From: Purpureocillium takamizusanense
Taxonomy: Eukaryota > Ascomycota > Sordariomycetes > Hypocreales > Ophiocordycipitaceae
Direction of reading: 5' to 3'
Length of the DNA stretch: 64,000 nucleotides
NCBI RefSeq assembly: GCF_022605165.1
Contig: NC_063069.1
Span: 3,348,001 to 3,412,000, forward strand
Shown piece by piece: positions 26,790 through 60,242 of this stretch. The notes under the pieces were generated by a model, which made no database searches, was not told the origin of the DNA, and saw only the letters and a list, made by a program, of their open reading frames with translations. The first letter of the stretch is position 1. Each line of letters starts with the position of its first letter. Both the position numbers and the translations under genes were made by a program.

Positions 26790-26828
26790 ACATACGACCA
26801 TACCTACTAGAAAGCACGGGATCCCGTC
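26790..26828 (+). rRNA. 5S rRNA gene, 5' half (split gene)
   Basis: Thirty-nine bases beginning ACATACGACCATA and ending GGGATCCCGTC match the first third of filamentous-fungal 5S rRNA. The expected continuation (CGCTCTCCCATAG...) is absent here but present at 35136. The segment CCTACTAG can pair with CTGGTAAGG of that 3' half as helix II (one bulge, one G-U), and ACATACGAC pairs with GTTGTATG as helix I. The two parts therefore appear to come from the same gene. Confidence 0.85.
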
Positions 26829-29778
26829 TAGATCTTTGGCCATGTTCACAGCACGCAAGATTTGGCGCCATGTGCCTCCACTTCCGAGTCCTCGTCGTCC
26901 AAGATCGGAAGACTGTGCACCGGGCCGCTTCCTGCCCCGCACCGTTTGGTCAGCTGACCAACCGCTAAAACCGAACTGCCCACCGTTTCCCTCGCGCCTG
27001 CGCACGTCAGCCGACATCGGTCATCGCACGCCAAATACAGCCACTACGCTCACCCCACGCGCATCGACTGTTAATTCTGGTCGTTGCCGTCTGGATACCG
27101 CTAATAGACCATCGCATGAATGTGCTAGAGCAATACCTCATGCACGAGTCCATTGCGCTCGCCTTGGCCCTTCCTCCGCAGAAGATGACCTTGGGATGCG
27201 GCACGGCTTCCTAGGAAGCTGCTCAGACACCTACACCGCGGGGCACGAGCGCCGTTATGTCGGCCATGGAAGACTATGGACGTTTAAATCGAAGACAAAG
27301 TATACTATCGTGAATGTAAATCAGACGTTGCCCCATGAAACGGATCGAGGTAGCAATATATCCCAACGCACCGAGTGTGACTAAGCCAACGGACTGCGCA
27401 TGTTCGCGGAGGAGAACAAGGTCGCGAATTGCCCGGCACAGGCTTCAACAGCGCCTTTGCGCACAGGTGGAAATCCACGGGGCCTCGACAAAAACAGGCG
27501 GACCGCAGGAAGGCCGCCTTGCGTGCGGGTTCAAGCTTGCCGACGGGTTCAGCAGCTGAGCATGCAACCAGGTCCTCAGGGCAAAGAATCTCCGCGGGGG
27601 CATACTTGGCATGGGTTCTTTCACACTGCCCCGTGGCTGCCCTGTGAGTCTGCGACTGCTCTCGTGCTGGCCGTCTTCCACAGTCTCTGAGACCACAACA
27701 CTCATATTCTCCCCATTTATATCCGACATTTGCATCCTTGCGGCCCGGGTCTTTCCCCTACCCAGTCAGACCTCATCCGATATTACGACAGGAGCGCAGA
27801 CACGCTTTCTTCCAAGAAAGGCACAGTTACCCCTTACAAACGCTAGAAATGTCTAATGCCCTGGTTGGTTGCCTTGCCTTGGTGTGGCCCTGGACCTCCC
27901 TATTTACTGCTTGTCAAAGGTGGTTTGTTTGACGATGCAACTATCGAAGCTGATTATCGACACTCACCATGAGTATTCTGGTGCGTGCGTGCCGAGGTAT
28001 GCGAGAAGCTGCTGAACTGAAGAGTCACAATGACGCACCGTCGGTTGATCCCTGTCGGGTCCACATCTGCACAGGCTCGGGAGAGTGCTAAACGCGCCTG
28101 CCTTTCCCGCTCAGCCGTATTGCCTTGCTCATGATTGGGATTGACCATGCCCTGCCGTTGGCACCAACTTCGATTCACCTAACATGCCGCCAATGGCAGA
28201 GCTTGCCCACCATGACAGGGCCAAAAACGCCGACCTGTTGCCTATTGGTAGAAGTAGTGCTTGGGCGCGTTGGCTCTCTAGCTAAGCCGCGCTCCCCGGC
28301 GTGGGCTACAGGTGCGGTGGCAGACCGATACTGACCATCGCGTACTTTTGATTTGTGACCATGTTGCAGTCGGCAGCAAAGAGTGACCTCGCGGTTCCAC
28401 GACTTGCGCATAACAAATGCAGGTGCGACCCCTCTGTGATCTGCGAGCCAAGTCCAACCCACCATGTTGAGCCATATTGGTTACTGCACCGCGATGTGCC
28501 CCCCCAAGGGGCTCATCATCACGTCGCCGCTCACAGTTGATGCAGACGGGAGAGATAGCGCTGATGATGTCCCCATTGTACTTAGTCTCGTGGATTGCAG
28601 GCGCACTAACAGATTCTTTTGTTTTCCGCAGTCATTGCTATTGTCTTTCCGCACTCATAGCGTCGGAAGGAGGAAATGACATCCAGGCTCTCAGCTTAAC
28701 TACAGCCAGCCACTCTCGCTCGGAGGGGCATCCCGTGGCGCACGGCAGCGCGGGTTGGCGCGTTGCAGCCGGCATCCGGCTTGCGTTCCCATCCCAGGTG
28801 TGCGGCATTCCGCCAGGACGCCAGTCTGTGCCTTGCCACCGGGTGCACAAGCGGGTAGCTGACGGGGGTTGTTAAGCAGCAGGTCAAAACTGAAGGCCCT
28901 TTATTTATTGACCATGCCCGTAAATATACATCGCGTCCTTGCAACAAAGCAGAGCTAAGAGACTCAGAACAGCCAGGTACCCGGCCACTATATCTAGATA
29001 TTGACTAGAGACTAGTGAAGGACCCATTCGAGAGGAAACGCATTCAGAACCGCTCTGCACAGCGAAAATATCCTAATTCATTCTGCATTTAATGGTCTCA
29101 CTATCACATTGACTAACTTCGTTCGCAGCTCGGAAGCAGAGAGAGTAGGCCAGGCGTGTGTTGGTCGATGTAGTACGGGCAACTTTTACAAACTTCTAGC
29201 GGCCCTGAACCACCGGAACTCGCCTACGATCCAGTATAATGAAACGAAGTCCATGTGGGAACAAGATATGCGCTTTGGCTGCCGATGTAATGCAGCTGCC
29301 GGAGGCTTCAGGATTTCTTGGGAACCCCGGTGTAGCATTACCTACCCCTGGACCAGCGGGTTTCTCTTTGGCAAGCCACACTTTCATGTCCGGCTGCCGC
29401 GCCTACCGAAACGACTACAGCAGTCAATCGTCTCTCTACAGTACTGGATTGTTTTCTCTTCTCGGCAGCACTTCATGTGCTCAATAGTTGCATAGGCCTT
29501 TGTTTACTTTCTTGATCTCATCGTTGCACAGAAGTTTTATTTCTAAGGATACTCACCCTTAGACCATAAGCCAGGGAAGTACGGGAAAACGATGTTCCGG
29601 GCACCTGGCTAGATGTGGAAGTTTTGCAAGTTATGAAGATAACGCTTCTGCTGCACGTAGCCTCAGCCGCAGGACATTGACAGCCTGGGCTTCAGTTCGC
29701 AAAGGACACGCCGGACCGACGGGTGATAGATTCAACCCCGCAGCATGAAACCGCGATACGGCTACGACAGTGATCGAC
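26829..29778. other. Left part of the 5S insertion, no assignable genes
   Basis: About 2.9 kb of moderate GC DNA. Open frames up to about 220 codons exist (for example 26719-27384, 28477-28875 and 29109-29495 on the plus strand), but none shows a motif, and some overlap each other on both strands. I report no gene here. Confidence 0.4.
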
Positions 29779-32700
29779 ATGGCTTCATCAAGATTGTCGC
29801 GCTTAGTCGATCGAACGACGAGGGCCCTATCTCGGGATCCCCGCACACTAAGCCTGACTGTAGAGCAGCCGCAAGGCCTGGAGGTTGTCTTCGAGGGGGA
29901 CAATCCGATCGTCGAGTACGTGCCATCTACGTCCCTGCACCTTCCTGTCTCACAACGGTAGCATCGTCGCACTACATGGCCTTAACGGCCACCGGAATAA
30001 AACATGGACGGCGGAAAATGGCGTCCACTGGCTCCGAGACCTTCTCCCTAAGGATCTTCCGCAAGCTCGCATCCTCTGCTGGGGGTATGACGCGAATACG
30101 CATGCCGCTGATCGAGTGAGCTGGCAGTATCTCTACGACCATGCGAGAACCTTCGTGTCAGACTTATGCAGGAAGCGGAGAATGACGAATGTAAGTGCGC
30201 ATCAGTTGCATGCTGCACTAATACTGAGACGACTATCTAGTCGATCGACCGACCGATTATCTTCGTCGCCCACAGCCTAGGAGGGCTTGTCCTCAAGAGT
30301 GTAGGCCCATCCGCTATATTATACGTACGAAATCTTTATTGACTGGCAACGCTAGGCCCTAATCCACTCCGACGCCGCTCGGCAAGGCGCCTTAGCTGAA
30401 CACCGGTCGATCAAACTATCAACATATGGAATTCTATTCATGGGAACTCCTCACCAGGGCGGAAACGGCGTGCAACTAGGACGAGTGCTCGCTAATATAG
30501 CGTCCCTTATCGTGGCAGCAGATAACCGGCTTCTGAAGCACCTCGAGAAGGACTCAGAATGGTTGCAGCAGCAACTGGGGCAGTACGGACCAATCAGCAA
30601 TGACTTTGTGACAAAGTTTGCCTACGAGGAGTATCCGACTCCCACCGTCTTGGGACACAGCATCATGGTTCGTATTTATACCGCTATCGTTGACACTAGC
30701 ACTAAGCACAAATAGGTGGTTCCAAAGGCATCGGCGGTCGTCCCAGGACACGCAGACGCCGAGCCAATCGTTATCCACGCAAATCACACCTCTATGGTCC
30801 GATATCTATCAAGGCAAGATATCGGATACGTTACAGTGTCGGAACACTTGCAGATAATGGCCAAGGATGCTACAGGCAATGTCCAACAACGATGGGAGGT
30901 AGAAGCAAGAGTAGATAACGGTAGGATTGCCTAGTTGTGGGAATTGTTCATAATTGACGGTAGATTCTCCAAGCACGAGCCAACATCGATCGTTTCAATC
31001 TTTCTCCTAGCCTAGCGGGAGCGACTGAAGCGACGCACTTTATTGGTAGAGAAGACGAGCTTGGCTGGATGCACCAAAACCTGCGCAGGTCACCGGGACG
31101 CCAAACTATTGTCTTGCATGGCCTAGGTGGTATGGGTAAGACGCAGCTCGCTATCGCATACATGAGGCAGCACCGAAATGACTATTCCGCGTCGATCTGG
31201 CTGAACGCAAGAGATGAAACGTCATTAAACCAGAGCTTCCGGATTGCAGCTATGAGGATCTATGGGGAGCACCCTGGCCTAAGCTACATGGAGAGTGCGG
31301 TTTCGGACAAAGACGGCGATGCGTCACTGGCCGTCAAGAGGTGGCTAGATGAACCGAGGAATGGGCGATGGCTGTTAGTCTACGACAACTATGACCATCC
31401 TAAGATGGAGGGCGATACCGGGGATGTGCTTGTCGAAGACGGTGGCATTCCAGGCCGGCCTAGCGAGGTAGATCAACAAGCCCCAGAGGGCTACGATATT
31501 CGGCAGTACTTCCCCGATACAGACCAAGGAGCAGTCATTGTAACGACGCGATCATCGACCGTCTATATTGGGGAGTCTTTGCGATTGCAAAAATTATGCA
31601 AGATAGAAGACAGCCTTCGCATTCTAAAGACAACTTCGGGCCGGAAAGGAGCCCAAGACGGTACACGGCATCCCTCCAACCCCGATGACTACATACGACT
31701 CTAATGAGTTCTAACGTATAATAGATGCTTCCGCTATAGCCCTTGCCCGCAAACTCGACGGCCTGCCGCTCGCCCTGTCGACAGCTGGTGCATACCTCAA
31801 GCAGGCCTCGACGTCTTGGCGAGAATACTTGCAAGATTATGAGAGCGCCTGGGACCAGTTGCAGAAACTGAGCCCGCAACTCCTGACGTACGAGAACCGT
31901 GCCATGTACTCGACATGGGACATCTCCTACGTAAGTATCTGCCGACGCAGCGAACCGGCGGCGATGCTGCTACGACTATGGGCTTTTTTCGGCAATGAGG
32001 ATTTATGGTATGAGTTAGTACGGCGAGGAAGCACAGAGTATGGACCTAAGTGGCTCCGAGATCTTACAGAGACTCGGCTTGCATTTGACCATGCCATGCG
32101 AGTGCTCTATAGCTACGGACTCGTTGAACCACATTCAACAGCGGCGCAAAATTGGTGTGAGTCAAGTGGCTATAGCGTACATGCTTGTGTGCATTCATGG
32201 ATGCTATATGCTCTAAACACACCGGATGAGCAAGACCTAGCAGCACTGGCAATGGAGTGTACCTGCCTACATGTGCCGGGAAAGGAGATTTCAGAGTACT
32301 GGTTGATGCAGCGGCGACTTGTGGTTCATGGTGATCGATGCCGTCAATTGCTAGGCGAGGTTGATAACGATGAAAGCAGTGCCTGGATGTCGGCAAACCT
32401 TGGAATCCTCTACGTGGACCTCGGGCAGTTCAAGGAGGCCGAGGCTATGTACGAGCGGGCGCTGCAATGCAAAGAGAAGGCGTGGGGACCGGACCACGCA
32501 TCAACACTCGACACAGTCAACGATCTCGCAAACCTCTATAAGAGGCAAGGGCAGCTCAAAAAGGCCAAGGCTATGTACGAGCGGGCGCTGCAAGGCAAAG
32601 AAAAGGCTTTAGGACCGGAGCATATATCGACACTCGATACAATTAACAATTTCGCAGTCCTCTACGCAGACCAAGGGCAATTTAAGATGGCCGAGGCTAT

Positions 32701-33691
32701 GTACGAGCAGGCGCTACAAGGCTTCGAGAAGGCATTAGGACCGGACTACGCGTCGACGCTCGATATAGTCAATAATCTGGCAAACCTTTATGCGGACTTA
32801 GGGCATCGTAAGAAGGCCGAGGCTATGTACGAGCGGGTGCTACAAGGCTTCGAGAAGACATGGGGACCGGAGCATACGTCGACTCTCAATACGGTCAATA
32901 ATCTCGCACTCCTCTACGCGGACCAAAGGCAGCTCAAAAAGGCCGAGACTATGTATAAGCGGGCGCTACAAGGCTTCGAGAAGGCATGGGGGCCGGATCA
33001 TACGTCGACTCTCGATACGGTCAATAATCTCGCAAACCTTTACGCTAGCCAAGGGCAGTTTAAGATAGCCAAGGCTATGTACGAGCGGGCGCTACAAGGC
33101 AAAGAGAAGGCGTGGGGACTAGAGCACACGTCGACTCTCGATACAATTACCAACCTTGCTAACCTCTATATAAGCCAAGGGCAGTATAACAAGGCCGAGC
33201 CTATATGCGAGCGGGCGCTACAAGGCTTCGAGAAAGCGTGGGGGCCAGATCATACGTCGACCCTCGCTATAATCAATAGCCTTGCTAACCTCTACGCAGG
33301 CCAAGGGCAGTATAATAAAGCTGAGGCTATGTACGAGCGGGCGCTACAAGGCTTCGAAAAGGCGTGGGGATCGGAGCATACGTCGACGCTCCTAACAGTC
33401 AATAATCTCGCTCTCCTCTATAAGAGCCAAGGGCATTTCAAGAACGCCGAGGCCATGTACGAGCGGGCGCTACGAGGCTACGAGAAAGTACTGGGCAAAG
33501 ACGGCATCACGACTTGTATCCCCTTCTTGAATGCTGTCCAGAATATGGGGCATCTATGCGCCATCCAAGGACAAGAGATACGAGCAAAGGAGTTGTACAC
33601 AGTAGCTCTTACGGGTGCTCGCAACGTCTTTGGAGATAGCAGTGGCCGTGTCAAAGAGCTCGAACATCGTGTAGAAGGTCTCTCCGACTGA
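29779..33691 (+). CDS. NLR-like protein: alpha/beta hydrolase - NB-ARC - TPR
   Basis: Seven exons: 29779-29915, 29962-30190, 30241-30300, 30356-30667, 30716-30910, 30964-31660 and 31725-33691. All introns are 46-64 nt and phase-consistent, and the product is 1198 residues with no lesion. Residues 46-270 form a SERAC1/lipase-like hydrolase (VDIVALHGLNGHRNKTW, nucleophile S134 in VAHSLGG, MGTPHQGG, HANHTSMVRY). An NB-ARC domain begins at FIGREDELGW. It has P-loop GLGGMGKT (K370, T371), Walker B WLLVYDNYD (D452), GAVIVTTRS and GLPLAL (556-561). From residue 768 there are nine 42-residue TPR units of kinesin-light-chain type plus a degenerate tenth. Fungal proteins of this design act in allorecognition and are proposed to act in immunity: repeats sense, NB-ARC oligomerises, and the N-terminal enzyme executes. 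Cytoplasmic location is expected; no signal peptide or membrane segment is visible. Confidence 0.9.
32396..33529 (+). repeat. Nine tandem 126-bp TPR-coding repeats
   Basis: Nine units of exactly 126 bp encode N-L-A-x-L-Y-x-x-Q-G-Q...A-E-A-M-Y-E-R-A-L-Q-G...E-K-A-W-G-P-x-H-x-S-T-L. The units are very similar at DNA level (GAGGCTATGTACGAGCGGGC recurs in several), with changes concentrated at a few codons. Such internal similarity is typical of fungal NLR repeat domains that expand, contract and homogenise. Confidence 0.9.
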
Positions 33692-35127
33692 ATATTCTCA
33701 TTGCAACGAATCATAGTTATTCCTTTACCTATCCAGTCTTGCTCCTGAGAGCACGCCTAACCAGACTATCATGCAGCGCTAGCTTAATCATGTGGACCCA
33801 TTATTTGCAACTTTTTGTTGATAGATACACGCTATGCGAGACCCCAGATATCTCCAATTTGTGTTTAAAGAGAGGAAGTTGTTTGTGCTCATAGTTGTAC
33901 TATAGAGCAATGAAGCAATCTCGGATCCATAGTTGCTGGCCCCGTGGATAGTGCTAGTGCTCTCGCACTGCCAGTGCGAGTGTTCCTCGCCACATATAAC
34001 GAAGTCAACCGTTTGCATTGATGTAGTTGTTGAACACTAGTCAGGAGACATTGTACGTTCCACGAGCCGTGTCAATATCTCTTGCGCGTCTGCTGCAGTA
34101 TCTGAGCATTGCATTAACACTATGGTACGATGCAGTCAGATGCTGCGCTTCGCGAATGTTTCTGGAACCTCGCCATTTCCGCCACAAGTGTGCCTGGAAG
34201 TGAGATCAAGTCGGTCATGAGCTCCGTGTCGGAACCGTCGTTTGTGAGACAGGCGGTACGCCCGCCTACCATTCCAACTGTACACGCCTGCTAAGCAGCC
34301 CTGGGTTCGAGCTGCAGCGTCTAGATCATTAGCAATCATTTGAGATATGACAGGCATGCGCAGAGTTGCCTGAAGTCGCCGTTACCGTTCGGCGCAGCAG
34401 TGCTGTGTTGTAACGATTACCGTGGACAAGACGCAGGATATTGACGGGCCTACCAATGAAGCCCATCGGCAAGTCGGGTATTGTGAAGACGGCTAAGCTT
34501 CGTGAAATGGACGACTGAACAGAATTGCACCCTCCACGATTTGCTTATCCCACTCTCCGTTCAGTATGTCTATACCCTCCAACCCAACCACGGTGATGTC
34601 CTCCTCTCTGTCCTCGTCGTCTCTCGCCCGCTCCATCGATGACCACTTGTTGCCAAAAGGAACGAGCCGAAGGACAGTTGTGTCCGGCACGTATGTAGTG
34701 GAGGTGAGCACCAAAAAGGAGTACGCCTTAAAATCCGGCTGGGGGGGGAGGGGGGGAGTTTCTCTGCTGGAAGAGAAGGAGAGAATTGAATCAGGGCACA
34801 AAAGCAAGCCCAACGGGCAGACAGAGAGGTGTGGGACGGCTGCGCACCCAACGAGGGTCACAGCCGTCCGTGCTACGGTTTAAAATAGACAGCGCTGACG
34901 TGTATAGCGACATGACCGGCAGTCTACACAAAACAAGTTGATCGATGGTGGGGGCGTACGAGCCGAGGGCAGAGTGTTCGGCGCTTCGGGACCGGAGGTC
35001 GGAAACGGTAGGATCTCGAGACCGCCTGGCCGGGACAGCGAGGTTTGGAACGGAGGCGGCTGGGGCGCGCAACCGTTGCCAGAAAAGCGGGCAAAAGATC
35101 GGGACAGGTTCATCAAGTAAGCAAGAA
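33692..35127. other. Right part of the 5S insertion, no assignable genes
   Basis: About 1.4 kb after the NLR stop. Two antisense-overlapping frames at 34493-34883 (122 codons minus, 105 codons plus) are possible but have no motif. A G-rich run lies at 34740-34758. No terminal repeat is visible at the right boundary. Confidence 0.4.
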
Positions 35128-35214
35128 ATCCCGTCCGCTCTCCCATAGTTAAGCTGGTAAGGGGCAGATTAGTAGTTGGGTCGGTGACGACCAGCGAACA
35201 CCGGCTGTTGTATG
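35128..35214 (+). rRNA. 5S rRNA gene, 3' two-thirds (split gene)
   Basis: It starts with the duplicated ATCCCGTC and continues CGCTCTCCCATAGTTAAG, then the internal-promoter region AGTAGTTGGGTCGGTGACGA and the 3' end CTGTTGTATG. The 3' terminus can pair with ACATACGAC, the 5' end of a 5S gene. The upstream DNA (GTAAGCAAGAA) is not 5S, so the gene is interrupted here. Confidence 0.92.
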
Positions 35215-35222
35215 TTTTTTTT
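35215..35222 (+). terminator. RNA polymerase III terminator
   Basis: Eight T immediately follow the 5S 3' end, the standard Pol III stop signal; a second T run follows at 35224-35229. Confidence 0.85.
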
Positions 35223-35283: not shown

Positions 35284-35322
35284 ACATACGACCATAGCCA
35301 TAAGAGAATTCGGGATCCCGTC
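35284..35322 (+). rRNA. Second 5S rRNA 5' half, broken at the same position
   Basis: Thirty-nine bases again run from ACATACGACCATAG to CGGGATCCCGTC and then diverge into unrelated sequence (AAGAACTTATC). Its helix II strand (GCCATAAGAG) does not match the 3' half at 35136, so it derives from another 5S gene. No corresponding 3' half is found downstream in the window. It starts 69 bp after the end of the first 5S gene. Confidence 0.8.
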
Positions 35323-36604
35323 AAGAACTTATCTTCTGTCCACCGACTCCCAATTCCTGCAGCATCGACATCAAAAAACAGCAGCCAGCATCTCCGTTAC
35401 CGGCAGCCAGCACACCATAATGCGCCCCAAAAATAGCTAAAGTCACCGTTTAAAACGGGACAGCACCACACCCCGCCCCCCTAATTCATTCACCCCCAAA
35501 CGTAAACTAATCATTTACTAAATTTCGTTTCAATCTTACTTATTCTATAGTCTACACTAAAATTGAGAATCCCAGGGCATGAAGACGCCAAATACTCCCT
35601 GCGCTTGACCACCCTAGATTCCGGTGTCCTCAAGCTTATTCCTTCTGCTTTGAACAATTGCAACACGAAAAGCAAGCTCTGCAATCGTTGTGTGCCATTT
35701 CGACCACCTGCTTGCAAGTAGAACACAATCTCAGCACTCCCAGACCTGCTAATAAAGCTGAAGACATATATCTATGGGCGGCGTAGACAAGAATACTCCC
35801 ACGCCCCCTACATCCAAAGATCCTTCCTCTACGCCTACTGGCACATCCGCCGCGAGCACCAGAGTTCCTTCCTCTGCGCCTACTGACACGCCTGCCACGA
35901 GCACCAGGGGCCGGAGCCGTGGCGCAGGCCATGGACTTGATTGAAGGATGTGGTGGTGGTGCCGTTGGGCCGTTGTGTTCGTTGGTGATGGGGCTGTTGG
36001 GAAACGTTGGAGGAGTGAAGGAACGGAGGACCGGAGAGCATAGATGTTGGGACCAGGTGGCTCTTTTAGGGGTTCGGGCGAGTCAGAGGCCCTCGTGGGC
36101 TCTCACTCAGCTTCCATCTGATATAACACCTGTCACCATCGGGAGTCGTGGTGGCGCGGGAAGCTTGCTTTGAGAGCGATAACCATGACGATAGTGGCGG
36201 CCCGCGCCGGCCAACCAACCGTACAATCACTACAGGTTGCTATGCGCTTGGCCGTAAATACCCGACTCCTTACCGTCAGAGAATACCAGGGCAACGAATC
36301 ATTAAGACACGAATCGCCCACACAAGATAACACATCTCAGTTCTTAAACGCACGTGCCATAATAACACTCAAAGGAAAAGGAAGTGGCAAGCACGCCATA
36401 TGATCTCTGCTATGTCTAGGTATTATATTCAGAATCCCACAGATAGGGGCTTAGTACAAGCTCGCCCACCTAAAGGGGATCTATTAGTGCGGGACGCCCC
36501 CTCTGCGGTCCCGATCAAGCAATGGCAACAGCAAACGCTCAAAGCAGCATGCTACACCTCCTCAGTCCGCCGTACCCTATGACCACCACCAAGCCCATCC
36601 TGAC
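35323..36604. other. Intergenic region between the second 5S relic and the HMG-CoA reductase gene
   Basis: 1.3 kb with no gene I can assign. A minus-strand frame at 35932-35636 (98 residues) ends in a Cys-rich tail (LCSTCKQVVEMAHNDCRACF) after Arg/Gly-rich repeats. The opposite strand of the same stretch reads as a Ser/Thr/Pro-rich peptide. Two 45-bp imperfect tandem units occupy 35822-35911. The last 200 bp should hold the 3' flank of the reductase gene. Confidence 0.35.
35822..35911. repeat. Two 45-bp tandem units
   Basis: Units 35822-35866 and 35867-35911 both begin CCTTCCTCT and share CGCCTACTG and GCGAGCACCAG-like blocks with a few substitutions. Confidence 0.7.
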
Positions 36605-39600
36605 TCAGCGCTTGGCCCTCTCCACCGCTGCAGGACTCGGCGCACCCAGCTGCTCAGGATGCCTGACCGCCTTCTCCACAGTGCTAGTTATGGCGAGACT
36701 GACGGGAGTCGTGGCGCCGCTTGACGGGGCCGGGGTGCTGGAGCGGGTGGGCGGGGCGGAGCGGTTATGCTGCATGTGGGCCTTGACGAGGTGGCCGGCG
36801 GCGAGGGCAGAGCAGAGGGAGAGCTCGCCCGCGAGGACGGAGGCGGCGACGATGCGTGCGAGCGAGCGGGCGTTCTCGCCGGGGTTGGGGAGGTGGGGCC
36901 CGCGCACGCCGAGCAGGTCGAGCATCGCACCCTGCGGGTCCAGGATGGTGCCGCCGCCGAGGGTGCCGACTTCGATGGAGGGCATGGAGACGGAGATTTG
37001 GAGGGAGCCGCGGAGGCTAGGGGATAGGTGTTAGTGCGGAATTCGAAGTAGGGGAAAAAGACGTCTTTGGGAGGCGGGACAGGAACTTACTTCTTCATGA
37101 TGGTGATACAATTGGCGCTCTCCACGACCTGGGCAGGGTCTTGGCCGGTAGCGAGGAAAATGGCAGCGACAATATTCGCCGCATGAGCATTAAAACCACC
37201 CACAGACGCCGCCATGGCCGAGCCGATGAGGTTCTTGTTAATATTCAGCTCCACCAACGAATCAACATCACTCTTGAGCACATGCTTCACCACATCGCTC
37301 GGAATGATTGCCTCGGCAACAACGCTCTTACCCCTCCCCTCAATCCAGTTGATGGCGGCCGGCTTCTTGTCGATACAGTAATTGCCACTCAAAGAGATAA
37401 TCTGCATATCATCAAACCCTGCCTCGGTAGCCATCACATTCAACGCATGCTCGACACCCTTGGAGATCATGTTCATGCCCATGGCGTCTCCAGTTGTAGT
37501 CTTGAAGCGGATGTAGAGATTAGTCCCCGCCATGGCCGTCTTCATCTGCTGTAACCGTGCGAATCGGCTAGTAGAATTAAACGCCTTCTTCATCACCCGC
37601 TGACCCTCGTCAGAGTCCAGCCAAAGCTTGGCAGCACCTGATCGCTCGAGTGTCTCAAAGGTCACGCACGGGCCACGCGTCATTCCATCCGCGGTCAGAA
37701 CCGTAACCGCGCCTCCACCAAAGTTGATGGCTTTGCATCCACGACTAGTACTGGCCACAAGAACACCCTCGGTTGTGGCCATGGGAATCATGTAGCTGCG
37801 ACCGTCGATCACTAGTGGTCCGGCAACACCCACGGGTAGGGGCATATAACCAATAACATTCTCGCAGCAAGCACCAAAGACCTGAGCCCAGTTGTAGTTA
37901 TCATATGGTAGCTTTGACCGATCAAGTACCCTGGTAAGCTCTTCGGTAGCCTTGGTTCTCGAGATAATCGTCCGGCGGACCTTGACGGCGCGAGTGAAGT
38001 CCTTGAGTGTCTCTTCCAGGGCATATCCGGGAATCTTGCCTCGTAATGACATGGAAACGACCTCCTCGTCAGTAAGCTCGTGTGCCCGTTTCTCCTGTAA
38101 AAGTTTCTCGATCTCTTCAGGTGAGTGTGAGACGTTGGGGCTGGCCTGTTCGGTAGCCGCTCTTGTGGCGGGCGATTCTCCTTCATCGTCTGTTGATGCA
38201 GGTGTGATGGGTTTCGATGGAGTTGCGGTAGGTCGCATATACTCGCCAGGTGGGAGATTCGGTGTGTCGACATCGTTGAACTTCTGGGCATCGGCAAGAT
38301 CGCGCGTATTGATTGGCCGATCTGGGACGTTGGGGTCCTTGATACCCCATCGAGCAGCGTTGAACAAGTAACCATTGAGAGCAACGCTCATAGCCAGGGC
38401 GACAACGATCCACTTGGACAAGATAGGGTCCTCGAGGCTCTTGAGGATGCTGCCCACCATGCGTCCACCCATCCCATAGTTCGCCAGATCATCCGACTCG
38501 CCCTCGACCTTACCGGGGCGCAGTCCGTAATGAATCGATGGGAACTCGAGCTCATACTTGATCGGGGTCAGAACAGTCACCACGGTCTCCTGACTCTTGC
38601 GCATTGCGTTTTCAAGAATCGAGTCCAGTCCGCTAGCCGCGACCTTGAACGGGTCGACGGGGGGCGAGCTAGCCACTCCGCCGAGACCTCCGGCCCATGA
38701 GGAGATGTAGGTGAGGGAGTCGGTGCTACGGAAAGGGATAGTGCAGATGTTGAGGACGTTGATGATGAGAAAACCGGATACCATGAGCACCTTGAACTTG
38801 GGGACGCTAGTGCTCTTCATTTGGCGACCAAAGATAGAGGTGGCTGGCTGGCCCTTGCCATCCACTCGGGCCCAGTCGTTGTTCTCGGCAACCTCCTTGG
38901 CAACACGGTGGCTGACACCATCGTCCTCCAGAGCCCTGCGTATCTCCACATAACGCTTGATCCGGTTGATCTCCAACTTAATGCAGAGGATAGCTGTGTA
39001 GAAGGAGAACAGCAGGATTCCATCGAAGAAGAGGATCCACGCTGCCAAGAAGCAGAATTGCTGTAGGCCGCCCTGGACTCCAGAAGCTGCACCCGCCACG
39101 AGAACGATAATTTCGATAACATAATCCTTGACAATCTCGTAGCCCTTCTCCTTGATGGCGGCTTGGATGGCGTACTGGATCACATTCGTTGTCCTCTCAC
39201 CGACCTTGCGAAGCCCCTTAGCGTTGCCAGTGGAGTTTCCGTTTTCCAGAGAACGGCGATGCTCCAATGCGTGTGATAGGACAGCTTGTGTCAAAATGAT
39301 GTTCTTCTCAAAGCCGATAGTGACAACCAAGAATGGCAGCCCCTCTGAGAGTAGTACGACGGTTATCGGTACACCCAGCTTGGTGGTTACGATAAGGCCG
39401 AAGAGGAAGGCGAAGATAGAGGACAACAGAGTGCTGGTGCCCAGCCAGAATCTCGAGCCTATCCGGCGCATGGAGAGGAAGAGCGAGACAAAGGTTAGGT
39501 GCATGGAGAGGTAGCCGAGGACCATGATAATGATGTCGAGAGTTTCGGCATTCTTCAGCAAATCCACAAACTCAACCCAGCTATTGTTAAACCAGCGCAC

Positions 39601-40314
39601 AACACTACTTCTGGTGTGAACTCTAGCCGCCTTCATGATCCACATCTTCTTTTCCCGGCCGCGCTCCGTATCCATCGTCTCCTGTCCCGGGATGTCATTG
39701 GGGATCTCCTGGGCGGCAGCCGCAAACTGCGGTGCCTGGTGGAAGTCGAGTGCAAAAGCAAGCGCAGTATCTTGGGAGTAGGCACCGAGCGGATTGGCGG
39801 TTGAGGGAAGCGAGGTGATGGACAGATTCTCAGGAGTCGGCACGACGTGGATCAGAGGGGCCGAGTTCGGGGCCGAGTTCGGGGCCGAGTTCGGGGCCGA
39901 GTTCGGGGCCGAGTTCGGCGAGCTGTGAGAGAGCGACTCGGGGAAAACGAAGGTGACAAGGGCGAGATGATCGGCGCCGGAGGGAGCCGATACTTCGGAG
40001 TCGTAGGGTTGCCATTTCCACGAGGTCTCGGGACCAATACGCAAGCTCCTACTACCATCACTCAGGCTAGACCAGTCGGCACGGCGGACAGTTCCGGAGA
40101 GGTCGAAGAGGCTCTCCTTGAGGAGGCCCAGGTAGGTGGAGCTGGCAAGGACGGCAACGATGACGATGGTATGAATCGGGTGTAGGGAGGTCAGGCTAGC
40201 CAGGGTCTGCAACAAGGCAGTGATCCTGTTGCTGAACCACGACGGGGCCGAGGCTTTCGTCGCGGGCTTCTGACCCCGGAAGCGGGAGGGAAGGAAGGAC
40301 GACGCAGCGATCAT
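36605..40314 (-). CDS. HMG1: 3-hydroxy-3-methylglutaryl-CoA reductase
   Basis: Exons 40314-37091 and 37016-36605 with a 74-nt intron encode 1211 residues. The enzyme makes mevalonate from HMG-CoA with two NADPH, the controlling step of sterol and isoprenoid synthesis, in the ER membrane. I start at [14 protein letters not shown], the family N-terminus; the frame extends upstream but without ATG. Membrane segments begin at about 47-65. A sterol-sensing domain covers about 258-440 ([20 protein letters not shown]). A linker (660-740) leads to the catalytic domain with [18 protein letters not shown]849 in ATTEG, the DKK lysines 983-984, D1039 in GQDPAQ, GTLGGGT, and catalytic H1155 in [14 protein letters not shown]1161 matches the inhibitory AMPK-type phosphosite. 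A (NSAP)5 repeat sits in the N-terminal loop. No lesion is visible, even though RIP-mutated DNA lies 260 bp upstream. Confidence 0.96.
39857..39916 (-). repeat. In-frame 12-bp minisatellite encoding (NSAP)5
   Basis: Five perfect copies of a 12-bp unit (GGGGCCGAGTTC on the plus strand) encode Asn-Ser-Ala-Pro within the loop after the first reductase membrane segment. It is likely to vary between strains without breaking the frame. Confidence 0.9.
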
Positions 40315-40574
40315 GTCGAAGTTTTGTCGAGGACGAGGACGGGTAAACACGATTGCGCAGGCCGCAGCGGTGTCAGCTGCAAGGAGGAACGGTGAGGAAG
40401 TGAGGTCGTACCGAGAGAAGGCTTTGTGCCTCACTACTATTGTTCCCTGATGGCGCCCCGTCGACCGATCACGGGCTGTCCAGTTGGGTTTTTCGGTGTC
40501 CAATGCGAGACAAAACGAGAATCAGGGTTCAGAGCCCGCGAATGAATGAGATTGGTTTAGCAATGAGGGAGGCC
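40315..40574 (-). promoter_or_regulatory. Short upstream region of the reductase gene
   Basis: Only about 260 bp of normal-composition DNA separates the reductase start from the AT-rich block. It must contain the core promoter and 5' leader unless regulatory DNA has been displaced. No specific site can be named. Confidence 0.45.
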
Positions 40575-41080
40575 GCTTAATTAAACTATATCGTTATACG
40601 TACCGCCTGCGCCGGTAGGGCTTAATTTACTTAAAAAATACGTTCCCGCTATTTTCCTATAATGTCATAATATCGGGGCTATATTATTCCGGGCCGGACC
40701 GGGCTAGTTGCGAAGCTAAAGCTGCCGCCGCTTATAATGCTATTAACGGGCCTAAGCCCCCCCTCCCTAGCCGCCGCCGCTACCGCTATAGCTACCTCGT
40801 AATGCCCTCTCGACCGTCGTCGTCGTCTGCCTTAGCCGCGGGCCCGCGATATAGCTATTAGAGGCGCGTTAAGAAGCATAGCTGTAATATTACCTATCGT
40901 ACTACTATATAGTGTTTATTACGTTAGCTATAATAGGCTACTACGGGCGGCCCGCGCCTACGTACCTTATTCGTATAGGGGTGGGGTTATATAGTATGCG
41001 ATTAGCTAGAAAAGAATAAAAAATGGATTATCTATGCGGCTAGACGTTTCTATCTATGTAAATAGTACTACTCTTTTTTT
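40575..41080. repeat. Dispersed repeat T, copy at the block edge
   Basis: Begins TTAATTAAACTATATCGTTA and ends near AATAGTACTACT. The same start, the internal TTCCGGGCCGG segment and the same end recur in direct orientation at 61739-62252 inside element X, differing mainly by transitions. A partial inverted copy is at about 61430-61630. It marks the sharp boundary between reductase flank and AT-rich DNA. Confidence 0.7.
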
Positions 41081-44000
41081 ATACCTTAAGTATTCGACTT
41101 TTTATTAAGGATCCCTTAATATTTTTAGCTATATAATTATTATTATTTACCTTTTTATCCTTATAATAAAAATAAAGCGCTTTTAAAGATTTTATTAATA
41201 ATTTAAAGGACCTTAATTATATTAACTCCTTTATATAAATTTTAAAGTCTTATATTATATCTATAAATAATAAAAAGGGATACCTTAATTTAAAGGAATA
41301 TAGCTTTTTAGCGAGATTTTTATTAATGATTTAAGACCTATTTATCTTTATTGCCTTTATCCTTTAGTTTATAATACCTTTCGTTATTATTACCTTACTT
41401 TAAAGTCTTAAAAGACCTTTATTATTTTTATTAAAGAGTAATATATATATTATTTCTATACCTATAATAGGTATTTTAAAAAGTAGTAAATTACCTTTAA
41501 TCTCTTTAAGTATTTTAACTATATTTAAGCTATTATTAATATTATCGCTATTAATAATATTCTTTTAGTTTATAAAATAATTCTTATATTTTAGTAAATC
41601 TCTTTAAGTTTATTTAGCCTTTATTAGCTTTTTATTATTTAATTATTAATAATTATTAAATTACTATTTTTTATAAAGGAAATTATAATAATTATAATAT
41701 TATTTATATTTAAGTCTAAAGTATTATTAAGATCTATATTAAGGGCTTTAAGGACTTTATGTTTTTATTAAAAGTTTATTAGCTCTTTATTTATAAGGTA
41801 TATTAGCTTATTATCTCTTTTAATAGCGTTAAAAAAGGCTATTATTTTAAATATACCTTAATTAATACTAAAAAGTCTATTATTAAAGTAATAGTAAAAT
41901 ATAAGAAACTTATTACCTTATATTAAGTATTTATTTTATATTAATATCCCTTTTTTCCTACCTTTATAATAAGTACTTTTCTTACTTTTATTTCGCTATT
42001 TAATTATTAATAGTTTTCTTAATTATATAATAAAGTCTTTAATTAAAAGATATTAATAATATTATATTTAATATTAAGTAATAATAGCTTTTTAATATAA
42101 AGCGCTATATTAATAGTAATTTACTATAATATTAAAGAGCTATTTATTTATAGCGAAATTAAAGATACCCTTTTTAGCGATATTATATTAAAGTTCTTTA
42201 TCTTTAATTTATAGGTTTAAGGTTATTATATTAATAATTTACTAGCTTTTTAAATAATCCTTTTTAAGCCTTAGTTTTTAAAATTAAGGTAATTTAAGGT
42301 TATATTAAGGTTTATATCTTAAGGTTTACTTACTTAACTTTATAGGTATATAATAAATTATTCTTTTTTTTAACCTTTATTAATTAATTTTTTATTTATT
42401 TTTCGCTTTAAGCTTAATATTTTAATAATAAATAGCGATTATATTTAAGGTATTTTTTATATTTATTATTAAAACCTATTAATTATACTTTATAGGCTAC
42501 CCTTTTTATTTAATTAAGTATATTAAAATACTATACCTATAATAATATTCCTTAATATCCTTTACTTTTTATTTATTATCGCTATTTATAAGGTTAAGTA
42601 TAGGTATTAATTCGCTATTAATTTATTTTCTTTATTTTATAACTTAAGGTTTTAAAAAGCTAATATAAAATATACTATAAATATAAGTATACTTATTTAA
42701 GAGTATTAATTAATAAGCTTAAGATTTAATATATTAAAGGATATAAAGTAAGCTAATATATTTAAGTAAGAGCTTTCTTTTTTTACTTTTAAGGTATAAA
42801 TTCCTTATAGATAACTTAATAAAATCGCTAATATTTAAGGATAGCTCTTTATATTATTTATTATAGTACTTAATTTATAATTTAATAGCTTTTTATTAAT
42901 ATTCTTATAATTACTTTTTTAATACCGCTAGCTAATATAGCCTAGCTTATATATTAAGTATCTTTTCTTTAATCTTTATATCTTTTAAATAAAAGTAAAT
43001 TATAGGCTTATAGCTTATTAACGCGTTATTAAGTATTAGCTTTATAGTAATATTAATTATATTATTATATATAAATTATATTTATTTTAATAATTAAGCT
43101 TAATTAACTTAATTAGCTATAATAAAGTAATAAAGGTAATATTTAAAGGTTTAATTTATTAATTTTAATTAATTATTTATTTAAGGGTAAAATACTATAA
43201 ATAATTATTATTTAATCTTAAAGGCTTAATATAATTATAATTAAAAATTACTTATAAATATTAAGCCTTTATTTAAGATAATATTATTAAATACTTTAAA
43301 TTAAAGCTTAACTTTATTATAAAAGAGCTTTATAAGCTTAATAATATTAATATCTATATAGTAAGGAAAGAATAAGGAATACTTAATATATTAATTAATA
43401 ATTATTAAAATAATATTATAGCTTTATTAATTTTATTCGGTCTTTAATAGCTTTATAATAAAGTCTATTATAATCTTTAATTATAGCCTTTAAGGAATTA
43501 AAAGCGATTTAAGATTTTTATATAAGTAATACTTTTTAATTACTACCCTTTAATATATAATATATAACTTAATATATTATTAAATATCTTTTATTATACT
43601 TAATTAATAAAAGACCTTATAAAGTAGCTTTATTATATATTATACTTTAAAATAGCTAGCTAAAGGATTATTATAATAGACTTTTAAGAGTTTTTATTTA
43701 ATAGTCTTTTTTATTAATATATAAATATATCTATTATAGTATAGTAAAAGGTTTAAGCTTATTTTTTAAGTCCTATCTTTATTATCTTTATACCTTTAAG
43801 CTATAAAAGCGATTTACTTATAAGCTTCTTTATCTTTACTTTAAGTATATTTAATTAATTCTTTAAAGTCTACTTTTAGCTCCTTATAGACTATCTCTCT
43901 TATTATAATATACTTAACTTAAGCTTAAAGTAATAAGGGATCTTACTTAATATTTCTCTTTACTTAATAATTAAATCTAAGTATATTTAATATAATCTTA

Positions 44001-45288
44001 ACTTAAAGGGGTTAGCTTTAATTTAAGATAAAGGAATATTATTCCTTTATTAATACTTTACTTTATCTTTTATAATATATTATTCTTATTATTACTTTTT
44101 TAATTATTATTAACTAGCTTTATAGATTTAAAAGTAAATAGGTATTTATTAATATTTTATTAATATAATCTAGCCTTTTTAAAGGTCTATTTATAAAGTT
44201 ACTTTTCCTTAAATAATATTTAATTATAAAGTTAAATAATATTAAAGCTATATATTATTATACTTACTTTTTATTTAGCTTTATTTAATTTATAAATATT
44301 TAAAGGTTATAATAGTTAAATAAGACTTTAATAAAGCTTATTACCCTTTTAGTATAATATTATTAATATTTAAATAATTTTATAATTATAAATATTTCTT
44401 TATTAAAGGTATTATAGTTTACTTTTTTAAGTTTAAACTTTTATAATTAAAAAGTAATAAAATATTATTACTTTTTTTTATTTAGCTAAAATAGGATTTT
44501 AGCTATAATATAGTTTAATATATCTATTTTAATATATATTAGCTTAATAAAATCGAAATACTATAATAAAAGTATATCTTAAAATATTAATTTAAGCTAT
44601 TTAAATATAGCCTTTTTATTAACGTTTAGCTTAATACTATTAGGCTTTTTACTATTTTAATTACTTTTAAGGAATATTATAAAAGGGGTAGCGATCTTAA
44701 AATATTAATAAATAAACTTATAATAAAAGTTATAAAACTTAAAAAAGACTTAAGTCTTTTAAAATATCTAGGGTTTTTATTAATTAGCGATAGCCTATAT
44801 TTAATAAGGGTTTATTAAAATATTAATACTTAAAAAAATAAACTTTAAGAACTTAATAAAGCTTTAATAAAATATATACTTAATAAAGTTAATATATAAT
44901 TCCGCTTATTATATATACTTTAAGACTTATATAATATATTTAATATATTCTTTTTAAATCTTTAAGAAAATAAGGATATTATTTAAATATATAATATAGA
45001 TTATATTAATTAGCCCTTAAAGTATAAAATAAATATAATTCTAAAATATAGTTAAAGTATTTATTAAGTTAAAGGGTATAATTAAGTATTTAAAATAATT
45101 ATAATAAATATAAAAAGCTATTTTTTATTTATTCCCTTTTTAAATATAAATCTTATAGTAAATATCTTTAATATTAATATTAATAAAATACTAAATACTT
45201 TTATAGCGGTCTATAATTTTAAATATAAAAAAGAATATATAGCGGTTTTTTATTAAAATATAATTAAGCTTATAATAATTTATATATA
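41081..45288 (-). mobile_element. Ty3/gypsy retrotransposon 3 (host), pol portion
   Basis: On the minus strand just left of 45288 the frames, ignoring stops, read like gypsy reverse transcriptase: NK-KIAFYIYYNYFKYL, then FKYLIIPFNLINTL, and YLNNILIF at 44989-44978 in place of YLDDILIF. Both Asp codons appear as AAT, the expected RIP change. Sequence further left should hold RNase H and integrase but is too mutated to read with confidence. Its reverse-transcriptase text is continuous with that at 52395-52678, across element 1. Confidence 0.65.
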
Positions 45289-45519
45289 TAACGGGGCTAG
45301 CGCTATATAGTAGGAGCTAGTCGGGTTATTAATATTTAACGTATTATAAAGGAAGGAAATTAAGGTTATATATTAAGTAGCCCCTATATACGCGGCGCTT
45401 ATTACGTATAGCCTTATATAATTAACTACGGGCCTAGGTTAGCGTAGGGTCTTAGCTATATATAGCGTTATTACGCTTAGGGCCGCGCTCTAAGCTCTTA
45501 TTAGGCTAAGCCCCTTATA
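45289..45519 (-). repeat. 3' LTR of retrotransposon 1
   Basis: 231 bp, directly repeated at 52164-52394. Shared blocks include GGGTTATTAATATTTAA and GCTAAGCCCCTTATA. The polypurine tract lies just inside it. Confidence 0.85.
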
Positions 45520-48500
45520 TTACCCCCCCGCTCCCCCCCCCCCCCCTAGGCTAGCCTTAGCTATTATAAGGGGGCTTATAATAACCCCTTACTCGAGCCC
45601 TTTAGTTAAGGGCTTCTTTACCTTTATACCTAATAGCCTATAAATAAATATATATAGCTAGCTTTTATTACCGCCTATTATATAGTAGGTAAGTCTATTT
45701 ATAAGGGCCTTATTTCCTTTAATTAGGTATCTCTACCCTTTTTAGTATAAGCCTTATTTACTAGCCCGTATATATTTATAGCCGGCCGGGTTAATAACGT
45801 CGTAATAGCTATTTACTTTAAGTTACCCTCTAAGCCTTATATAACTATTAATACGGCATAACTATAAAAAGACCTCTTTCCCCTAGGCCTAGCGGGCTTC
45901 CTTCTTTCTTTTTATAACCTTATTACTATCGCCGCTATTACGCTATCGCTACTATTATAATAATAGTAGTAATAGTAATAATAATAATAATAATAATAAT
46001 AGTAATAATAATAACGGTAAGTCTTTACCCCCTCTTCCCTTATTATTATGCCTTACTCTATAGGGCGCGAAGGCGTATTAATTCGAGCTAACGTTTAGGA
46101 TAGATATTATTAAAGTCTTTATAGGCTAGGCTTTTAGAGCCTTTATCGCTATTACTATCGCTATTACTACCGCGAGTCTATCGCCCCCCTTACCTTATAG
46201 TAGCTATACCTAGCCCCTCTATTATACTTTAGGCCGCTATTATCGCTATCTTAGCCTCCCCCCCCCCCCGCTACTTACTTTATTATTACCCTTTAGGGTA
46301 CTTACTATAGTTATTTATTACCGCCCTTAATATTGCCTTCTATAAGTATACTTACCTCTCTTTATATAAGTATTACTAACTTAAGATAAAAAAAGGTAAG
46401 ATTTAATACTCTTATTAAAGAGCTTTACTTTTACCTTTATATATACTATACTAAACTAGAGGCTAATTACGTAGCCTATATTAGTTAATTATAAGGCAAT
46501 TATTATAGCTATTATATAACTAATTATATATATTATTAATTAAGCTTAGCCTTCTTTATTATCTTATATAGTTAAATCTCTATTATTAACGCTATTATCG
46601 CTATTATTGCCGCTATTATTGCCGCCCCCCTTATTACCGCTAATACCGCTATTACTATTACTATTACTACCGAGAAGGTAAAGGCTAAGGTAAAGAAAGT
46701 ATTAAGCACTACTTATATAGCGACTTAATACCTTTAGGAACTAAAGTATATAAGCTTTATACTTAAATAAGTCCCCTCCCTTTATCCCTATATAATACTA
46801 ACGATATAGCTATTAACCCCTATATAAAGGTAGCGCTAATAACCTTAATACCCTCGCCCTTACCCTTACCCCCGCCGCCTTAGCTATTACCTTAAGCAAT
46901 AATACCTAGCTATTTACTAAGGTAGGTACCCTTAAAGATTACTTTATAGCGGTCGAGATTATTATTACTACCTTTATTAAGGCTCCCCTTATTATCGCTA
47001 CTATTATTATTATTATTAAAGAAAAAGAAAAGGAGGAAGATAAGGAAGATAAGGAAAAGGACGAAAAGGAAAAGTAACTACGCTTTATAAAGTAGCCCCC
47101 CCCTTTTAAAGGGGGTAAAGTTAATATTAACGTTTCTTTTTAACGTTCTTTATTAACCTATTTTATAAAATATTTATATACCTTAATATACCTTATTTCC
47201 TTAAGCGGCTTTTATATTAACTTAAGATATCTACTTTATTTAATTAAGGCTTCTTCCTTAACTCCTTAGCTATAAGGCTTTTAATAGACTATAAAGATCT
47301 CTTTTACTTTATAAAATATATTATCGCTTACTTATATTAATATAGGCTAATTATTTAAAATAGCTTAACTAAATATAAGGTTATTACTTATATATTATAG
47401 CTAATCTATATAGAAATAGTTATATATACTTAAGGGTAGGCTTATTAGCTCGATTATATATAGGCCTATTACTTTATTAATTATATATTTCGAGTATAGC
47501 TAATCGAGCTTTTTCTTTAGTCTTATAGAGGTATAGTTATAAAGGTCGAGCTAGACTTTATCCCTTACCTTATACCTATCTATAAAGCTATATATATAAT
47601 TAGCCTATCGCTTTTACTTAAGTAAGGCCGCTATTATTATAAAGCTATAAAGCTTTATAACTTATTTAAGCTTTATTATAAAGGCCTATACTTTACTCTT
47701 TAATATAACGCGCTAGCCTATTTCCCTTATAGGGATAAAGGGGCCGCTTATAATAGGTTAAGGGTAATAACTATAAAATATAAAGAAAAGGGATATACCG
47801 ATTAAGGTATTTATTTAGCTATTAAATATAAGCTAGGCTATAGGTAGCTATTAGTTTTAGTTATTTTAATTATAGTTAATATAGGCCTTAAGGTATACCT
47901 ATACTTCTTAATTAATCCTCTCTATACCCTTATTTATTTAAGGGTAATATACTATATTAAGTTATTACTCGATACTTACTAGCTTATAGAGGTATTATTA
48001 AAAGTTACTTATTTAGTTTATTCCTCGATTACTTATAATAATAGCGGGCTAGCTATATTAATAAAAGTAATACTAAAAGAAGCGCTCTATATATATAATA
48101 GCGTTTATAATAGCTATTAGCTTTAATATAATTTCTTTATTAAGCCTATCTTAGATAACCTAAAGGAAGCGGCTTTTACTTATAGGGGGGAGGTCTATAA
48201 TAAAGTCTATTTAAATCTACCTATAAAATTAGTTAGGTATAAATAAAGGCTATAATAGGCCCTTTTTATACTCCCTTTATATCTTTATATAGCTATAAAT
48301 ATTATAGTTATAGAGGAACCTCTTAATATATTATTATATTAAGGGCTAATAGAACTTATATAATAATATAGCTATTATACCTTCTCTATTAAGGTACTTA
48401 AAAAGGGGCGAATTATAGGCCTATTATATTAGCCGACCCTTAAGTTCGTTTTATAAATCTATTCTTTTAAGAATAGACTTTACCTTTACTTTTATTACCT

Positions 48501-51500: not shown

Positions 51501-52163
51501 GGTACTAAAAAGCTACCTATCTCTTTAATATAGGCCTTATAGCTTATCGAGCGCTCTTTTTTTTACTTATTTATTACTAAAGAGGTATTTAATATAGTTA
51601 AAGAAGGCCTATAATTCCTTATTACCTTTAAGTCCTCCTTAGGTTTAAAATCCCTCTATATAAAGCTATAATTAAATAGGTAATATATTAAGGAGCTAAT
51701 ACTAAGTAGCTCTACTTTCCCTATTAAGGCCTTTTACTTTATTAGTCTTATATTTACTCTTTAATTAATATAGGAAAAAGTAAAAGTATTCTATCTTACT
51801 ATCTTATATTAGCTATTTAAGTAGCTTTTACTTCTTAAGCTTAGGCGCCGCTCTATTAAGGGCTATTAGGTTAAGTATAGACTATAATTACGCCCTTAAA
51901 TATTTAAGTTCCGCTTATTAAAGCGCTTATTATTACGTTAGCTATTATACCTATTATTATACTTATTATAGCGCTTATTATTATACCTATTATTATACTT
52001 ATTATTTTACTTATTATTACGCTTATTATTATGCCTATTATTATACCTATTATTACGCTTATTATTATACTTATTATTATGCCTACTATTCTATCGAGAG
52101 CCTATAGGCTACCGCTAGGTCTATCTTTATTGCTTAGTTTACTATCGTTAATAATATATATTA

Positions 52164-52394
52164 TAATAAGGCCGGCGCTATATAGTAAGAGCCGGTCGGG
52201 TTATTAATATTTAATATACTATAAAGGAAGGAAATTAGGGTTATATACCGGGTAGCCCCTATACGTATAGCGCCTATTACGTATAGCCCTACGTAACTAG
52301 CTATAGGCCTAAGTTAGCATAAGGTCCTAGCTATATATAGCATTACTACGCTTAGGGCCGCGCCCTAGGCTCTTATTAGGCTAAGCCCCTTATA
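52164..52394 (-). repeat. 5' LTR of retrotransposon 1
   Basis: Partner of 45289-45519. It retains several C/G bases (for example GGCCGGCGC) that are T/A-shifted in the other copy, so each copy took its own RIP hits. Confidence 0.85.
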
Positions 52395-52678
52395 ATATAT
52401 AATTAAAAAATACTATCTTTCTTAAATATAAAAAGGATAAAGGCGCCTATTAAGTTCTTTAAATATTATATTTACCCCTTTATTAAGTTTTTACTAATAT
52501 AGCTATAAAGCTCCTTTAATTTAAACTATAAAAAGAGTAAATAAAGGGGGTTATATAATAGGATAGTATTAAAGAGGAGGTTAACTATATAATCTATTTC
52601 TTTATAGCGTAATAATATCTTTATTTAAGTAACGTTATATATATCCTTAAGATATATTATTTTAAAAAGTAAGGGGTT
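52395..52678 (-). mobile_element. Retrotransposon 3, protease/reverse-transcriptase junction
   Basis: Minus-strand reading: NPLYLLFL, then KLNKGVNIIFKELNRRLYPF and RQYFLIIY. This corresponds, in order, to the gypsy segment that precedes the reverse transcriptase (PLYSLS...L..GFIRPS.S..GAPILFVKK). It continues at 45288 once element 1 is removed, and to the right it is cut by element 2. Confidence 0.6.
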
Positions 52679-52908
52679 TATAATAAAGTATTAAAATAGA
52701 ACGTATATATATAAGCCTAGGTAGAGAATTGGGGCATATATATAATGCCCCTAAACTATAGGGTATTAAAGCCTATTTAGCTAGCGAACTAAAAGTTTAA
52801 ACCTATAAACTTTAGTCTTATAATATTATTACCTTTATACTTATTTAACTATATTATTACTTCTTTTACTTAATTACTAAACTAATATTTAATAAATAAG
52901 CTATTATA
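52679..52908 (+). repeat. 5' LTR of retrotransposon 2
   Basis: 230 bp starting TATAATAAAGTA and ending AAGCTATTATA (TG/CA ends converted to TA). It shares GCCCCTAAACTATAGGGTAT with the partner copy. Confidence 0.9.
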
Positions 52909-60007: not shown

Positions 60008-60237
60008 TATAATAAAGTACTAAGATAAAATATATATATATAAGCTTAGGTAGAGAATTAAGGTATATATATAATGCCCCTAAACTATAGGGTATTAAAG
60101 CCTATCTAGCTAGTAAATTAAAAGCTTAAACCTATAAGCTTTAGTTTTATAATATTATTACCCTTATACTTATTTAACTATATTATTACTTTTCTTATTT
60201 AATTACTAAATTAATATTTAGCGAGTAAGCTATTATA
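60008..60237 (+). repeat. 3' LTR of retrotransposon 2
   Basis: 230 bp, identical in length to 52679-52908 and differing almost only by transitions. It is followed directly by the GGGTT duplication. Confidence 0.9.
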
Positions 60238-60242
60238 GGGTT

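Follow-up and report, generated by a model that had tools for sequence, protein, structure and literature searches.

Starships that target 5S ribosomal DNA (rDNA) are already known. According to passages of PMC12153272, Osiris Starships (Enterprise family) of Aspergillus fumigatus insert in 5S rDNA, direct repeats of more than 6 bp accompany 5S targeting, and terminal inverted repeats are present in 18 of 20 Starships. Passages of PMC12134995 state that certain captain families prefer sites such as 5S rDNA and give a Starship size range of 15-700 kb; NLR genes are named among common Starship cargo in passages of PMC10128009. Here we analyze a 64,000-nt stretch of the Purpureocillium takamizusanense genome (NC_063069.1, positions 3,348,001 to 3,412,000, referred to as the window), in which a 5S ribosomal RNA (rRNA) gene, gene A, is split by an 8.3-kb insertion. 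We consider it probable, at roughly 85%, that this insertion derives, without a captain, from a Starship lineage that targets 5S, and that a captain-type recombinase attached it to the 5S gene at nt 32-39. What is unusual is that the insertion keeps both element ends and an NLR gene, yet gives no captain match. Among openly licensed papers, represented mostly by titles or passages and with the founding Starship papers outside the set, we found none on point for captain-less short or non-autonomous Starships, and among openly licensed papers none on Purpureocillium Starships; PMC11623301 and PMC12289983 make no mention of 5S or autonomous.

Two pieces of one 5S gene

A preliminary description of this DNA had reported a 5S gene broken after its first 39 nt, with an 8-bp repeat at both junctions. 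Both observations stand, and the pieces are as follows (contigs of the assembly are numbered C1, C2 and so on, with the window on C2).

26790..26828, plus strand: 5' half (nt 1-39) of 5S gene A, 39/39 identical to intact genes on C6 and C13
26821..26828, plus strand: left copy of the direct repeat ATCCCGTC, from the sequence
35128..35135, plus strand: right copy of the direct repeat ATCCCGTC, from the sequence
35128..35216, plus strand: 3' part of 5S gene A, from the 5S match and the joined-gene comparison

Rejoining the halves minus one ATCCCGTC gives 120 nt identical at 120/120 positions to an intact gene at C6:2534327-2534446 (minus strand), with one difference from the gene at C13:85085-85204 and two from two other intact genes. 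Because the rejoined gene equals the intact C6 gene throughout, both pieces are, judged by sequence, one 5S variant; a check for halves of different variants, proposed in the preliminary description, thus returned 0 differences. An intact copy of the gene A sequence exists elsewhere in the genome, on C6. The ATCCCGTC repeats lie within the 5S gene itself and are direct repeats that belong to the target site.

A 27-nt pattern of the 3' junction (up to 3 mismatches) had 1 match, with 0.00 expected by chance. The gapped pattern ACATACGACCATA...GGGATCCCGTC had 9 exact matches in the 35.6-Mb genome, all at whole or split 5S genes, and its reversed control had 0 genome-wide; ACATACGACCATA (13 nt) alone is weak, with 3 matches at up to 2 mismatches, 1.13 expected and 3 reached by 5 of 100 shuffles. 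The Rfam 5S match at 35104-35216 (41.9 bits) extends into the right end of the 8.3-kb insertion and is not an intact gene. Pairing between the halves, also claimed earlier, is seen for helix I in the lowest-energy fold of the rejoined gene, and canonical helix II is absent from that fold. Since the intact C6 gene has the same sequence and folds identically, the fold adds nothing beyond sequence identity.

Because 47 of 1855 first-look candidates were scored, the 5S counts of the genome are lower bounds: at least 21 matches at E <= 10, of which at least 16 are full-length and score 74 bits or more. Such dispersed genes are possible substrates for a chromosomal rearrangement or ectopic recombination that could have parted the two pieces of gene A, and misassembly would have the same effect. 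We regard this explanation as very unlikely: both ends of the insertion match those of an element that itself stands between the halves of a different 5S gene, and recombination between 5S genes is disfavoured because it would not place element termini on both sides.

Ends shared with a captain-bearing element

The preliminary description had suggested looking for the same ends beside other 5S genes and for a DUF3435 element carrying them. Such an element was found: it occupies 66,140 bp in a 5S gene on C13 (C13:85308-151447). Three regions of the 8.3-kb insertion are common to it.

26830..27256, no strand: left terminal region, 427 bp, 72.6% over 452 aligned columns
28436..28582, no strand: internal 147-bp patch, collinear with the C13 element, 68.7% identity
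34666..35127, no strand: right terminal region, 462 bp, 71.3% over 509 aligned columns

The last 320 bp of the insertion reach 78.2% over 339 columns. Counted in register from the junction, 32/40 nt agree at each end (0/500 mononucleotide shuffles). Homology at the right end stops near window position 34666, which corresponds to C13:150941 and lies about 56 bp before the first codon of the captain (150885).

The C13 captain is a DUF3435 gene on the minus strand (148399-150885), with its first codon 0.56 kb inside the right end and facing inwards. Its best stretch in the genome-wide family search scored 28.2 bits (cut-off 25.8) and has one TGA inside. Two of its three open pieces match DUF3435, one at 3e-5, under the cut-off, the other at 5.1e-6, narrowly over it, and five stretches, with one TAG at an edge, are 90-97% identical to P0133, a Purpureocillium lilacinum protein. 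The element has 28 frames of at least 220 aa, of which ten were scanned together and four in other scans. Three of the ten matched, to DUF3723 (8.3e-60), ankyrin repeats and a methyltransferase; the four others include a kinase-like frame (below cut-off), DUF7779 and a captain piece. DUF7779 is known from NLR-type proteins. An NLR-type frame lies near the left end, with TPR repeats of about 30% protein identity to those of the window NLR gene. By anatomy, the C13 element is a Starship.

The 8.3-kb insertion and the C13 element are alike in both ends, 5S position, orientation and possession of an NLR-type frame. They differ in that the C13 element is 8x longer and has a captain and DUF3723. At the C13 locus a 5S gene A is intact and gene B is split by the 66,140 bp, and the spacer between them is partly like that in the window; the C13 pair thus resembles a paralogue of the window pair with one of its two genes left unoccupied, although the loci differ upstream of gene A.

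Five 5S genes broken at one position

A second split 5S gene, gene B, begins 67 bp beyond gene A in the window and had been overlooked in the preliminary description.

35284..35322, plus strand: 5' half of 5S gene B, from the 5S pattern, 67 bp after the end of gene A
35323..64000, no strand: window part of a 30,390-bp insertion in gene B, reaching C2:3413712, from split-gene comparison
63709..64000, minus strand: decayed captain (DUF3435 family) of the 30-kb insertion, with pieces to C2:3412770, from the P0133 match

The 3' part of gene B starts at C2:3413713 (window coordinate 65713), 1.7 kb past the window. Rejoined, gene B is identical to the rejoined B gene on C13, with 3 differences from the nearest intact gene (C10). 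The captain remnants occupy C2:3411709-3412770 on the minus strand (P0133, E 3.4e-33, three collinear pieces with 14 stops inside); they end 0.94 kb from the right end of the insertion, in the same place and direction as in the C13 element. Compared with the 8.3-kb insertion, the 30-kb element has the same 5S position and orientation, and a captain remnant lies near its right end. It is unlike the 8.3-kb insertion in its ends, which are only weakly similar, in mutation by repeat-induced point mutation (RIP) and in carrying an HMG-CoA reductase gene. At the right end it bears a weak resemblance to the C13 element (17/40, 3/500 shuffles; local alignment 4/500). Window 41001-64000 is strongly RIP-mutated (GC 0.226, composite index 1.43), and the 5S halves around the insertion are unchanged relative to the C13 split gene. 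The same interval is a long AT-rich stretch, with GC of 0.13-0.41 per kb and inverted and direct copies.

Altogether five 5S genes are broken at the same position: genes A and B of the window and those at C13:85308, C13:450778 and C2:5087091 (minus strand). Over its first 40 nt, the left end of the 8.3-kb insertion agrees at 32 with the C13 66-kb element, at 28 with the C2 insertion and at 23 with a C13 insertion of 2.5 kb (0/500 shuffles each, and again 0/500 by local alignment), so that clear similarity links four of the five left ends. An exact 8-bp repeat occurs at the 8.3-kb insertion alone. CCCGT is common to the 8.3-kb, 30-kb and 66-kb insertions, and the left copy at the 2.5-kb insertion of C13 is CACATC.

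Two of these insertions deserve separate mention. The one at C13:450778-453321 (about 2.5 kb) lies in another 5S gene and has, besides a related left end, a frame of the Fic/DOC family (E 2.7e-9); it gave no captain match at E <= 1. At C2:5087091-5087130 (minus strand) a 5S 5' half (5087092-5087130) is followed by a related left end, and no 3' half was found there. Besides the full-length genes, the other five of the 21 5S matches are 3' parts, in gene A of the window and at C13:151414, C2:3413728, C7:2238130 and C13:453323. A further 3' fragment lies at C9:1676318. Right ends of the C13 2.5-kb insertion and at C7 are unlike all others compared. The window locus presents 5S genes as repeated docking sites, with two adjacent genes both filled.

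This recurrence bears on two further explanations. Transposons of the hAT type make 8-bp target duplications, and the repeat at gene A is exactly 8 bp. A hAT-type DNA transposon is nevertheless the least probable of the explanations considered: insertions occupy one and the same position in five 5S genes, which amounts to a strict choice of site, two of these insertions have captains, and those other than the 8.3-kb one share fewer than 8 bp. Moreover, 16 scanned frames of the 8.3-kb insertion revealed no transposase domain, and its ends have no significant inverted repeats. The other explanation is a mover of undescribed kind, as the preliminary description had ventured on finding no recombinase. 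Our captain queries and Pfam scans of the 8.3-kb insertion likewise found no recombinase. An undescribed mover is, however, highly improbable, since the same-ended C13 element and the same-site 30-kb element carry DUF3435 captains (as remnants in the latter) and 5S-targeting Starships have been published (passages of PMC12153272). The earlier proposal of a site-specific insertion that carries an NLR gene is supported.

Contents and classification of the 8.3-kb insertion

26829..35127, no strand: 8,299-bp insertion without captain match, from length and from profile and protein searches
29864..33691, plus strand: NLR gene, limits approximate, predicted to have several spliced exons, from Pfam, repeats and frames

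In the NLR gene an NB-ARC domain (E 2.2e-6, in frame 30964-31704) is followed by TPR repeats of 126 bp each, forming an array that is in frame over 31715-33691. Its N-terminal piece, without Pfam match, we take to be hydrolase-like from an AHSLGG motif. Four captain queries gave a best E of 0.82 in the insertion, and ten queries gave no match at E <= 1. Sixteen open frames of, or overlapping, the insertion (part of the frames of at least 50 aa) contain no transposase or recombinase domain; they matched only NB-ARC/AAA, plus TPR and other helical-repeat families on the TPR frame. Ten of the sixteen had no Pfam match at E <= 0.1. A resemblance to a captain start, noticed by eye at window 34493-34640, was dropped after Pfam and tblastn gave no match. 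The insertion shows no RIP signature, with GC of 0.533 and a composite RIP index of -0.34 (-0.45 for window 1-26000). Just inside the right terminal region, window 34505-34645 is 78% identical over 141 bp to C11:748002-748142, and about 130 kb separates the C11 stretch from the single 5S gene found on that contig.

Of the features of Starships, the insertion has target-site repeats, the ends of a captain-bearing element and NLR cargo, and it lacks an inward DUF3435 captain, which is present in the C13 element and as a remnant in the 30-kb element. We file it as a Starship derivative rather than a full member because it gives no captain match. Like Osiris (passages of PMC12153272), it splits 5S rDNA with a direct repeat of more than 6 bp and carries cargo. 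The four Osiris type elements are, in contrast, 37.6-138.3 kb long and captain-classified, and the insertion described here has 8.3 kb and no captain match.

Possible movement in trans or loss of the captain

If the insertion derives from such a lineage, a captain-type (DUF3435) tyrosine recombinase would have integrated it at nt 32-39 of the 5S gene. Site-specific recombination at a short core that occurs in both element and target would leave the core at both junctions and would result in a fixed orientation, with the captain side toward the 5S 3' part. The approximately 0.43-0.46 kb kept at each end, in addition to the NLR cargo gene, could represent cis-acting ends, and the recombinase may have been supplied in trans by a relative such as the C13 element. 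In a side observation made by eye, AGTAAGCAAGAA before the core (about 35116-35127, at the right end of the insertion) resembles AGAAAGCACGGG before the core in 5S at 8/12 positions, a pattern that recombinase arms present in both the element and the target site would produce.

Supply in trans, to which we give about even chances, is more likely than the alternative that a full captain-bearing Starship entered gene A, that internal deletion then removed the captain and most of the cargo, and that the short form never moved. This alternative remains a serious if less probable contender. It shares the core claim of a Starship derivative and differs in the last step only. It fits the view in passages of PMC12153272 of small elements as captain indels rather than transposing Starships, as well as the collinear internal patch common to the 66-kb element, and the C11-like stretch (78%, 141 bp) inside the right terminal region could mark a rearrangement. 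Two findings speak against it: no captain fragment was found in the 8.3-kb insertion, and a second short insertion (about 2.5 kb, Fic/DOC, no captain match) has a related left end, though a dissimilar right end. Clean 5S halves do not decide between trans supply and loss in situ, because the halves of the 30-kb insertion are clean too.

Several points weigh against a mobile Starship derivative. Our data come from one genome of this fungus (35.6 Mb, 14 contigs). The shuffle counts apply per pair, and 20 end pairs were compared in all. Ends of the neighbouring 30-kb insertion agree with those of the 8.3-kb insertion at 18/40 nt on the left (3/500 shuffles; local alignment 135/500) and 16/40 on the right (17/500; local 471/500). 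Genome-wide, the ends of the 8.3-kb insertion match only themselves, the C13 element and, for the inner right query, one C11 stretch. The best terminal inverted repeat score of the insertion was reached by 39/200 shuffles, and such repeats were not significant in any of the three elements tested. Its size (8,299 bp) falls below the published minimum of 15 kb, and elements below 15 kb are filtered out as captain-gene indels in passages of PMC12153272. We read the TGA and TAG in the C13 captain stretches as probably intronic, by alignment to P0131 and P0009; a captain broken by a stop had been considered and was dropped, as the alignments to P0131 and P0133 appear to fit introns. Unmutated 5S halves as a sign of recent insertion were withdrawn as an argument, given that the RIP-mutated 30-kb neighbour has equally clean halves. 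That the short form may itself be mobile is a conjecture.

A broader possibility, which we advance tentatively, is a hidden class of few-kb non-autonomous Starship parasites with about 0.45 kb per captain-recognized end and conflict-type genes (NLR; Fic/DOC), moved by the captains of full Starships. If such a class exists, captain-anchored surveys would miss its members by design. Movement of the short form in trans, if real, would mean that Starship mobilization needs only short ends and an outside recombinase, would offer a minimal substrate for testing captain site choice, and would imply that Starship cargo has been undercounted.

Extra HMG-CoA reductase and further captain relics

36761..40521, minus strand: extra HMG-CoA reductase gene in the 30-kb insertion, with the main open frame at 37087-40521 and a C-terminal exon near 36761-37012

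The protein is 75% identical to the host's own copy (C9) over 807 aa. Among the proteins listed, one from Hypoxylon cercidicola is 94% identical to it, two others reach 92% and 88%, and the next twelve 72-74%. In a tree of 31 sequences, 29 of them chosen among the best 120 of 4794 relatives, these four form a clade (support 1.0) apart from the sampled Xylariales and Hypocreales, and the host's own copy (C9, partial, 798 aa) groups with Hirsutella (support 0.903). Because the four-member clade stands apart from both sampled orders, the tree suggests a horizontally moving lineage, which the window locus would place inside a captain-bearing insertion.

The grouping of the host's own HMG-CoA reductase with Hirsutella points to a host probably in or near Ophiocordycipitaceae, and captain relatives found in Purpureocillium are consistent with this. 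In the genome studied here, DUF3435 also occurs on C1 and at other places on C2, in copies that are not near the 5S genes found (none on C1; at least 278 kb away on C2). More captain relics lie at C1:4502591-4502926 (64% to P0133) and C5:1866617-1866751 (51%).

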